Source: Methylacidimicrobium cyclopophantes
Lineage (GTDB): Bacteria; Verrucomicrobiota; Verrucomicrobiia; Methylacidiphilales; Methylacidiphilaceae
Direction of reading: 5' to 3'
Length of the DNA: 44,860 nt
Assembly: GCF_902143385.2 (NCBI RefSeq)
Contig: NZ_CABFUZ020000087.1
Location: 1 to 44,860, forward strand
Translations under genes and position numbers: made by a program
Notes under the pieces: model-generated
Told to the model about the DNA's origin: nothing
The model's input: only the letters and a program-made list of their open reading frames with translations
The model's database searches: none
In this document: piece by piece, positions 24,513-27,305 of the stretch
Layout of the letters: the number at the start of each line of letters is the position of its first letter
Position numbering within the stretch: the stretch's first letter is position 1

Positions 24513-24587
24513 CGGAGTGTAGCTCAGTCTGGTCAGAGCGCTTGCTTTGGGAGCAAGAAGTCGCAGGTTCGAATCCTGCCACTCCGA
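24513..24587 (+). tRNA. tRNA-Pro (anticodon UGG)
   Basis: A 75-base cloverleaf. The acceptor stem CGGAGTG pairs with CACTCCG, followed by discriminator A. The anticodon stem CTTGC/GCAAG encloses loop TTTGGGA, with anticodon TGG at 24548-24550. The T arm contains GGTTCGAATCC. The C1-G72 pair is characteristic of tRNA-Pro. CCA is not encoded. A hairpin GAGGCG/CGCCTC (24612-24617 with 24621-24626) lies downstream, without a U tract. Confidence 0.95.
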
Positions 24588-24661: not shown

Positions 24662-25837
24662 TTAGCCGTTGGGGGAGCTTCCCTGTCGCGGAACTTCTTC
24701 GAAGTGGGCAAGGAGGCGCTCTTTCTCTCTGGCGTGACGAAAGGCAACCTCGCTGCGGATCATCCCCGCCTTCCAGAGTTGGAGGATCGCGTCGTCGACG
24801 CGCTTCCCTCCGTCCGGAGCTACTTGGAGATACTCCTCGAGGGAACCAAACGACCGAGCACGGATGGCCGCTGCGACCGCAGGAAGACCGGGAAGAACTT
24901 CGAGGAGTACGAAAAAGCCATCGCCGTCCTTGCGTGGCAGGACGATCGGACAAAGAGTCAGACGCAGCGTTGCGGCCAACCGATCGATTTCCAGACCCTT
25001 GCCGTTCCGCTCAAGCTCGTGGATTACATTGGCGACCGCGGCAGTGGCTCCCTCGGACTCGTGAGTGGCGAGCACTAGTTTCCCCGACGCCGCCAAGGCG
25101 AGGGCCGCCGCGATCTCCTCGGCTCGCCGCAATGGGTCGATTGCGACCATTTCTCCGTCCAGCGCAACGGCCGCGTCGAGAGCGGCGGTCAGTGTGGGGA
25201 AGTCCCGGGGAATCTCCCATCGACAGATCCAGCTTGGTCCGAAAGGAAAGGAAAAGCGCGCGGGTTCGACCTCCAATACGAGAATTCGCCAAAACTGAAC
25301 GCTGCCCAGCCATGCAACCAGACTTCCCAAGAGGCTTGTCTTCCCGGTAGCAATTCCGCCCGCGACCAAGACGAGGCCGCGGATGTCTGCCAAATGACGA
25401 AGGGCGGGAGGAAGAAGCCGTTGGTCGATCGGTGGCGGAGGAAGGATCGGCAGAAGGACGGCACCCGACCCCTCTTTCGACTCGAAAAAGTGGCCGCGAA
25501 AGAGAATCCCGTCCGGACCGCGGTAGAGAATCCGGCCTGTCGCCGCTCGTTTTGCCTCGCTCGATTGGCGGGGGCCGGCCAAGGCCTGGAGCCAAAGGTC
25601 CAGTTGCGGACGCGAAACGGGAGGAAAGCTCAATGGAAGGAGTTTTCCCTCCACGCGCGCCGCAGGTGCTTCCCCCGCGAAGAGATGGACCGCGGTCGCC
25701 CTTGCCTCAAGGGCCGAAATCAAAATCTCGTCGAGATGGTTCACGGGCGCTCGCAGCCCTTTCCCGCAAAGGTTCCCCAGCGACCGGCAAACGAGGCCGG
25801 CGGATCCGCTCGAGTCGGTCGTCGATCCGGGCGGCAT
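24662..25837 (-). CDS. Degenerate PilT/PilU-like secretion ATPase (second of pair)
   Basis: This 391-residue protein matches the type IV pilus retraction ATPase layout. The N-terminal PAS-like part (HLDEILISALEARATAVHLFAGEAPAARVEGKLLPL, about residues 34-68) precedes RGLVLVAGGIATGKTSLLGSL with Walker A lysine K166. The rest of the motor is altered. The Walker B region reads VALDGEMVAIDPLRRAEEI, without the usual D-P-D-x-I-L-V-G-E-x-R-D. The His-box position is ATHESEG, where PilT has ATLHTNSA. It may be an inactive or regulatory partner of the upstream paralog. The first 33 residues look disordered and the true start could be later. No pilin or pilC gene is adjacent. Confidence 0.8.
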   Translation of the reverse strand: MPPGSTTDSSGSAGLVCRSLGNLCGKGLRAPVNHLDEILISALEARATAVHLFAGEAPAARVEGKLLPLSFPPVSRPQLDLWLQALAGPRQSSEAKRAATGRILYRGPDGILFRGHFFESKEGSGAVLLPILPPPPIDQRLLPPALRHLADIRGLVLVAGGIATGKTSLLGSLVAWLGSVQFWRILVLEVEPARFSFPFGPSWICRWEIPRDFPTLTAALDAAVALDGEMVAIDPLRRAEEIAAALALAASGKLVLATHESEGATAAVANVIHELERNGKGLEIDRLAATLRLTLCPIVLPRKDGDGFFVLLEVLPGLPAVAAAIRARSFGSLEEYLQVAPDGGKRVDDAILQLWKAGMIRSEVAFRHAREKERLLAHFEEVPRQGSSPNG

Positions 25838-25922
25838 GCGTTCCTATGGCTCCCGGGGAAAGCCGGCCTCCTCCTCATATCCGTCCTAACTGTAGTGCCT
25901 CGAGTAGGACCTTTGTGAGAAA

Positions 25923-27305
25923 TCATCGCTCGGGCGCATTCGGCGGATGCATTCTTTCCACCCATTGGGGACGATATCGACAACGGGCATAAGCGGCCTC
26001 CATGCCGACGAGACCCTGTTGAAAGAGCCGCCAGAGGGAGTCGTCGATCGGCTGAAAGTGCTTTCCCCCTCCCGCGCGTAGGACGCTCTCCATTTGCTCA
26101 GGTTCGGCGTTCCTCAAGGCGACTGCGGCCGCGGGAACGTTCCAAAAGAGCTCGATTGCCGCCACTCGGCCTCTGCCCGTCGCGTTCGGGATGAGCTCTT
26201 GGGCCAGGATGGCCCGGAGCGTGCGCACGAGCAAGGAGCGGCTCGCTCCTTTCGGCAGCTGTGCGCAGAGCTCCCGGAGCGCCTCCCCGACACCTCGAGC
26301 TCCCAGCGTGGCAATCACGAGCGCGTCGGTGCGCGCCGTTTCCTCGACGAGCAGGCGGAGGTTTCGTCGAAAGGCGCCACTGTCCAGAAGCAGGACATCG
26401 ACGTCAAGGCCGAATGCCGCCCGGAGCAGCTCATCGCTTTCCGTCGAGAATTCGGACAAGGGGAGACGGACGACACGAAGGCCTTCTTCCTTCCATGGGT
26501 GTTCCGGATGGTCTTCCATGAGTACGACTCTCCCGGCACCCGAGCGGTGGATTCGCCGGGCGAGAGCCGCAAAAAGAGTGGACTTCCCTTGGCCGGGACC
26601 ACCGGTCAAGACGACGAGGCCCGATGAGAAAGTCGTCAGAGCGGCCGCCTCTTCGACTCCAAGCGCGCCAAGCTCGAGAGGGCCGCGAAAGGGCAAGCGA
26701 AAGCTGAGAAAATAGCTCTCCCCGTCCCGACCGATGGTGAGCCGGGCCCTCCACTCGTCGGGTCCGTAGAGTAGAGAAATCCCCTTCCCTCGTGCCGCGG
26801 CCCCGGAGGGGAGCATCCTCTCGACAATCCGATCGAGCTGCTGGGGCGAAAGAGTACGCCAGTTTGGTCCGAGAATTCGAAGCGACCCGTGGCAACGGCA
26901 AAGCGGAGGATGATACGGAGCCAAATGCAGGTCAGAGGCTCCCTGCCTGGTCGCTTCCGTCAGCCATTGATCGACAAATCGCTCCGGAACTGCTTCGCCT
27001 GGAGGCGGCGTATTTTGGCGTTGCAGCCAGCTCCTCTTTTCCTCGTCGATGATGCCTTGCTCGTAGAGGAGATCGGCCGCGTTCGCTTGGGGGAGGACGG
27101 CCAGGGCAGCTTGAATCGCAGGAAGGCGAGACTCCTCAAGCCAATGGCGGGCTGTGGCAATCGCGAGCATTCTCTCATTTCCCGAAGGTTCCACGGAGAG
27201 CGTCCTATTTCCCGGACTGTACGGAAGGAGAGGACCGATTCCAAGCCCGTGCGCGTCCGCCGGAAGAGGGCAGATTCCGAAACCGGAAGGAGCCGCTGCC
27301 GACAT
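25923..27305 (-). CDS. Degenerate PilT/GspE-like ATPase (first of pair)
   Basis: This 460-residue protein has an N-terminal ~105-residue extension. The GspE/PilT N2-like segment FVDQWLTEATRQGASDLHLAPYHPPL follows at about 110-135. The ATPase domain has Walker A GGPGQGKST with K241. The Asp-box position reads MEDHPEHPW, where the family has T-I-E-D-P-x-E. The Walker B region is VDVLLLDSGAFRRNLRLL and the His-box position is ATLGARGV, so the conserved histidine is missing. The family moves type IV pilins or type II secretion substrates. The start at 27305 has GAGGAAAG as ribosome binding site; an ATG at 27566 would overlap hisB. It diverges from hisB by 60 bases and precedes its paralog by 85 bases. 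Confidence 0.8.
   Translation of the reverse strand: MSAAAPSGFGICPLPADAHGLGIGPLLPYSPGNRTLSVEPSGNERMLAIATARHWLEESRLPAIQAALAVLPQANAADLLYEQGIIDEEKRSWLQRQNTPPPGEAVPERFVDQWLTEATRQGASDLHLAPYHPPLCRCHGSLRILGPNWRTLSPQQLDRIVERMLPSGAAARGKGISLLYGPDEWRARLTIGRDGESYFLSFRLPFRGPLELGALGVEEAAALTTFSSGLVVLTGGPGQGKSTLFAALARRIHRSGAGRVVLMEDHPEHPWKEEGLRVVRLPLSEFSTESDELLRAAFGLDVDVLLLDSGAFRRNLRLLVEETARTDALVIATLGARGVGEALRELCAQLPKGASRSLLVRTLRAILAQELIPNATGRGRVAAIELFWNVPAAAVALRNAEPEQMESVLRAGGGKHFQPIDDSLWRLFQQGLVGMEAAYARCRYRPQWVERMHPPNAPER

Follow-up and report, generated by a model that had tools for sequence, protein, structure and literature searches.

A PilT-derived ATPase pair without pilus machinery or catalytic glutamates in Methylacidimicrobium, a candidate for exaptation as an ATP-binding switch or scaffold

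The stretch of Methylacidimicrobium cyclopophantes DNA analyzed here (44,860 nucleotides, contig NZ_CABFUZ020000087.1, hereafter the window) carries two adjacent genes, A and B, which descend from the tandem retraction ATPases of the type IVa pilus, namely PilT-A with a helical N-terminal extension followed by PilT-B. Neither protein retains the catalytic Glu or the His-box His, and the family to which the organism belongs has lost the rest of the pilus machine. Judged from sequence comparison, the pair is best explained as a relict of the retraction motor, co-opted as a pseudo-ATPase that binds ATP but hydrolyses it poorly and acts as a switch or scaffold without a pilus, a reading to which we give a probability of roughly 0.55. 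The altered pair is present in each of the seven Methylacidimicrobium genomes and is thus neither a chance event nor a sequencing artefact.

The gene pair and its altered motifs

The initial annotation had placed two adjacent PilT-like ATPase genes at 24662-27305, and these coordinates proved exact. The features of the locus are as follows.

25923..27305, minus strand: gene A, PilT-derived with an N-terminal helical extension, 460 aa; an alternative GTG start at 27194 is possible
27015..27182, minus strand: N-terminal four-helix domain of A, residues 42-97, common to the upstream PilT of order-level pairs
26577..26603, minus strand: Walker A of A, GGPGQGKST, 7/9 positions invariant in the genus
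26379..26393, minus strand: Walker B of A, LLLDS, Gly to Asp invariant, catalytic Glu replaced by S/I/A/V
26289..26312, minus strand: ATLGARGV of A versus ATLHTSNA in relatives, His box lost
26019..26060, minus strand: C-terminal block of A, HFQPIDDSLWRLFQ, residues 416-429, invariant in 7/7 genomes
24662..25744, minus strand: gene B, PilT-derived, 360 aa from GTG 25744, reading frame open back to ATG 25837
25337..25360, minus strand: Walker A of B, GGIATGKT, a GxxxxGKT motif in which Ala replaces the middle Gly
25133..25147, minus strand: Walker B of B, VAIDP, Gly to Asp invariant, catalytic Glu replaced by P/S
25049..25069, minus strand: ATHESEG of B versus GTLHTNN in relatives, His box lost
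24513..24587, plus strand: tRNA-Pro (TGG), just downstream of B, given as context

The reading frame of B from 25837 to 24662 would encode 391 aa on the minus strand, but the start at GTG 25744 is better supported because homology to all relatives begins there, near residue 32, and 360 aa is probably the true length. The genes are separated by a spacer of 178 bases (25745-25922) in the window's genome, while A and B overlap by a few bases in the other six Methylacidimicrobium genomes; the spacer is single-copy in the genome, which ruled it out as a mobile repeat. One flank of the pair holds, besides the tRNA-Pro, what we take from sequence recognition to be a SUF iron-sulphur cluster (sufC, sufB, sufD), and the other presumably a divergent hisB and a folP-like gene. 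The flanking genes are identical in type across the other Methylacidimicrobium genomes, so that synteny is kept.

Both proteins match the PilT/PilU model TIGR01420 over almost its full length (A 2e-28, B 8e-35), with bit scores of 99.5 for A and 120.6 for B, far under the curated cut-off of 319 bits. The threshold of the Pfam T2SSE model was reached by A (36 bits) and missed by B (13.7 bits), and the nearest solved structures by sequence were PilT and PilU for both. AlphaFold models of A (pLDDT 77) and B (pLDDT 88.8), built from 19-row alignments, match PilT4, PilT2, and PilU along the entire length of PilT, and the PilT fold, consisting of N-domain, RecA-like core, and C-terminal helices, is predicted to be full-length and intact in each. 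The PilT-family assignment made initially thus agrees with profile, structure, and fold matches. The secretion ATPases DotB, GspE, PilB, and VirB11 belong to the same ATPase superfamily, but their sequence and fold matches to A and B are weaker and their scores lower than those of PilT, and a GspE or PilB identity was ruled out on these grounds. A plain PilT plus PilU identity was ruled out as well, by motif loss and by scores far below the TIGR01420 cut-off. A and B share with PilT/PilU the fold, the domain order, Walker A, the tandem arrangement, and descent; they differ in lacking the catalytic Glu and the His-box His, in the Walker B change of Gly to Asp, and in a genome without the pilus machine.

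The motifs were read from an alignment of the window's pair with the pair from 19 further genomes, including 12 canonical relatives that belong to the order but to other families. This reading is not an alignment choice, because no gap occurs up to and including Walker B and conserved acidic residues upstream anchor the alignment. Walker A, GxxxxGK[ST], is present in A and B of all seven Methylacidimicrobium genomes with an invariant Lys; the initial description of a clean motif in both suits A, and for B it needs the qualification of the Ala noted above. Where relatives have VGEMRD at Walker B, A has LDSGAF and B has IDPLRR, and throughout the genus (7/7 genomes each) the atypical GE has given way to D[S/A/I/V] in A and to D[P/S] in B. 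Likewise, in place of the LHTS/LHTN of relatives, A has LGAR and B has HESE; across the genus, neither protein has the His-box His at its place. The Walker B and His-box changes reported initially were therefore borne out. The Asp box, reported as changed too, is altered only around its key Glu, which itself is kept in B (7/7) and nearly always in A (6/7, with Gly in G005). The alignment revealed neither a conserved catalytic Glu and His box in both proteins nor a plain PilT and PilU, and the initial reading on this point stands.

In ordinary ASCE ATPases the Walker B Asp is the Mg-binding residue. According to a previous study, the Walker B acid of PilT-like ATPases is Gly, Mg is bound by the Asp-box Glu, and the catalytic Glu is completely conserved (PMC5424180). 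The change from Gly to Asp has occurred in parallel in A and B, accompanied by loss of the catalytic Glu in both; the two paralogues are only about 27% identical. Arginine fingers have been described in PilB as R271/R286, 15 residues apart (PMC5424180), and by this spacing both putative finger positions are kept in A and only the first in B. In A, the Walker B strand with its Asp is invariant across the genus at 6/8 positions, and the stretch after the Asp has drifted, with invariant positions numbering 0/7 in A and 1/7 in B; enrichment of invariance in the B motifs was not significant (P = 0.15-0.37). The 14-residue block HFQPIDDSLWRLFQ of A is more conserved than the nucleotide motifs.

Loss of the pilus machine and ancestry of the pair

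Profile searches of the 13 family genomes gave no match to PilC/GspF (PF00482), prepilin peptidase (PF01478), or N-methyl prepilins (PF07963) in any of them and no secretin in 12, and PilM matches were partial and weak only; PilC, the peptidase, prepilins, secretin, and PilM were all present in the order-level relatives tested. No pilus gene lies within the window, and the initial remark that none surrounds the pair is true of the whole genome, where neither pilin nor PilC was found elsewhere. A pilus-type PilB was not found either, the only other T2SSE protein of the window's genome being a 698-aa GspE-type ATPase with canonical motifs (L063, G000:C109, 8975-11071). It adjoins genes resembling a conjugation/type IV secretion cluster and has a relative in most family genomes, also in genus g2, which lacks the pair. 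With such neighbours and its persistence in g2, this ATPase was ruled out as a partner of the pair. Taken together, the profile searches show that the family of Methylacidimicrobium lost PilC, prepilin peptidase, prepilins, secretin, PilM, and pilus-type PilB in any form that these profiles recognize.

The sole secretin of the family is a lone secretin-domain reading frame (787 aa) on a metagenome-assembled contig of the genus (G002:C219:7285-7818), and this contig is possibly contamination or a mobile element.

The same pattern emerges from a sample of 113 genomes of the class. PilC is missing from 14 of these, comprising 12 of the family and two 0.9-Mb genomes without a PilT match, and PilC is present wherever a PilT scores above the family cut-off. 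Within this sample, a PilT-derived pair without PilC occurs only in Methylacidimicrobium's family.

A tandem pair with intact motifs in both genes (GEMRD; LHTS, LHTG, or LHTN) is present in 12/12 aligned relatives from other families of the order, and the helical N-terminal extension of the first gene is also found in all 12. These order-level pairs (for example, G019 C1:1698632-1700763, G013 C40, and G028 C82) resemble the window's pair in the A-then-B order and in the extension on A, and differ in their full motifs and in the PilC, pilins, peptidase, and secretin encoded by their genomes. Within Methylacidimicrobium the pair recurs in the same order in 7/7 genomes, the window's included, with 57-65% identity to the window's pair, and is thus confirmed to be shared by related genomes. 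It is absent from 5/5 genomes of genus g2. In G008, which represents a third genus of the family, the pair lies at another genomic place with partial motif losses: the Walker A of A reads GRGSGRT, without its Lys, and neither protein has the catalytic Glu. The G008 pair is situated just downstream of what we take by eye to be a lanthanide-type methanol dehydrogenase (xox) cluster (L070 4445-11528). Owing to the loss of the Walker A Lys in G008 A and of both genes in g2, the family shows a trend towards loss.

In separate trees, A clusters with A and B with B of the relatives, with 99-100% support. In the joint tree, A and B of the genus attract each other, which was flagged as long branches meeting; a recent A/B duplication inside the genus, as drawn in the first tree, was ruled out by this flag and by the separate trees. 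The neighbouring genes were also considered as a clue to function and set aside, since only housekeeping genes adjoin the pair in the genus and the G008 pair lies elsewhere; no conserved partner gene was found.

Constraint on the pair and its possible roles

For the pair, dN/dS values of 0.18-0.34 were obtained, and their upper 95% limits do not exceed 0.48 even for the closest genome pairs; the values of neighbouring genes are mostly 0.03-0.2, although one of them (g17135) is as fast as the pair. Overall, the pair's rate of evolution is several times that of its neighbours, and its stem branches exceed 3 substitutions per site (about 3-4). Change at silent sites amounts to about one per site, yet none of the 14 gene copies contains a stop or frameshift, one copy of A being cut by a contig end. 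The pair is therefore relaxed but clearly constrained by purifying selection and is not decaying freely. Together with the machine missing from genome and family and the seven syntenic open pairs, this supports the initial proposal of jointly diverged motors with an altered role.

The history of the pair can be summarized as follows. An ancestral PilT-A/PilT-B retraction pair, standard in the order's other families, was left behind in a family that lost the remaining pilus machine; genus g2 lost the pair too, and Methylacidimicrobium kept it. There the catalytic Glu and the His-box His disappeared from both proteins, the Walker A Lys was retained, as was the Asp-box Glu in nearly every case, and Asp replaced the Walker B Gly in both. 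The products may fold as PilT subunits and bind Mg-ATP with very slow or no hydrolysis, assemble as PilT-like subunits, perhaps mixed, and form an oligomeric switch or scaffold that depends on ATP and serves some partner that is not PilC. Since both arginine-finger positions are kept in A and the second is lost in B, A would probably be the subunit that chiefly holds the nucleotide, with B assembled alongside it, though this is a weak inference. The invariant C-terminal block of A is a possible partner-binding surface. Tentatively, the pair can be pictured as a natural pilus-free pseudo-ATPase complex made from a tandem PilT pair, in which hydrolysis was lost jointly, the classical Walker B Asp was regained, and an ATP-holding switch or scaffold serves a new partner.

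The initial annotation had offered a heteromeric hexamer with one regulatory subunit as an example. An arrangement of one active and one regulatory subunit is not favoured, because the catalytic Glu and the His-box His are missing from both subunits and neither looks like an active partner; where PilT and PilU have been studied best, each forms a homohexamer of its own (PMC6821130). A PilT unable to hydrolyse ATP can nevertheless be useful, since the Vibrio cholerae Walker B mutant PilT E204A, for which ATP binding without hydrolysis is expected (PMC6821130), still supports PilU-dependent retraction (PMC6821130, PMC6762196). The mutant lacks the catalytic Glu at the position equivalent to that lost in A and B (PMC6821130, PMC6762196). 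However, it is an engineered single change with an active partner and a pilus, whereas in A and B the changes are natural, affect both partners, and occur without a pilus.

The main rival to exaptation, which we regard as rather unlikely, is a slowly decaying relic that has no positive function, is held by weak residual constraint after pilus loss (for example, fold stability, avoidance of toxic misfolding, or expression within the locus), and will eventually vanish as in g2. The fast evolution and long stem branches are as expected of relaxed constraint and count against exaptation, as do the family trend towards loss, the lack of a conserved partner gene, and the non-significant enrichment in the B motifs. 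The fast evolution, the dN/dS, high relative to the neighbours, the catalytic residues lost in both proteins, the missing Walker A Lys of G008 A, and the five g2 genomes wholly without the pair all fit decay. Decay is opposed by reading frames that stayed open despite the silent change noted above, by the upper limit on dN/dS, by a Walker A Lys and a new Walker B Asp that are invariant in both proteins across the genus, and by the fully invariant block HFQPIDDSLWRLFQ in A.

It is improbable that the pair is a still-active motor or transport ATPase which uses other catalytic residues, such as the new Walker B Asp, to drive a non-pilus machine. Walker A, the Asp-box Glu, both arginine-finger positions of A, and the purifying selection would suit such a motor, but the catalytic Glu and His-box His are gone from both proteins, the residue after the new Asp varies (S/I/A/V in A, P/S in B), and the genome yielded no PilC/GspF-family membrane platform for it to turn. 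It is very improbable that the pair drives a type IV filament system too diverged for the PilC, pilin, peptidase, and secretin profiles: the strong divergence of PilT in this lineage implies that its partners could have diverged too, and G002 has one secretin-bearing contig, but three independent component families are missing from 13/13 genomes and secretin from 12/13, PilM matches are only weak and partial, and, in place of a pilus-type PilB, the other T2SSE protein adjoins a conjugation-like cluster and is itself also present in the pair-less g2.

Significance of the altered pair

No description of an altered PilT pair was found in the literature searched, which likewise yielded nothing relevant on Methylacidimicrobium or Methylacidiphilum with PilT or pili, or on degenerate PilT. 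A pair without the catalytic Glu in both members, in which a Mg-type Asp has reappeared at one place in both, departs from the complete conservation described for the catalytic Glu and the Walker motifs across the PilT/GspE superfamily (PMC5424180). The pair has outlived its whole machine, providing a natural experiment on a secretion motor without hydrolysis or platform, and the case is directly testable through the class-wide contrast, where a PilT above the cut-off is always accompanied by PilC and this family alone has the altered pair without PilC. The host genus consists of acid-loving, methane-eating bacteria and, if the exaptation reading is true, these acidophilic methanotrophs would possess an ATP-holding switch or scaffold that works with a new partner.
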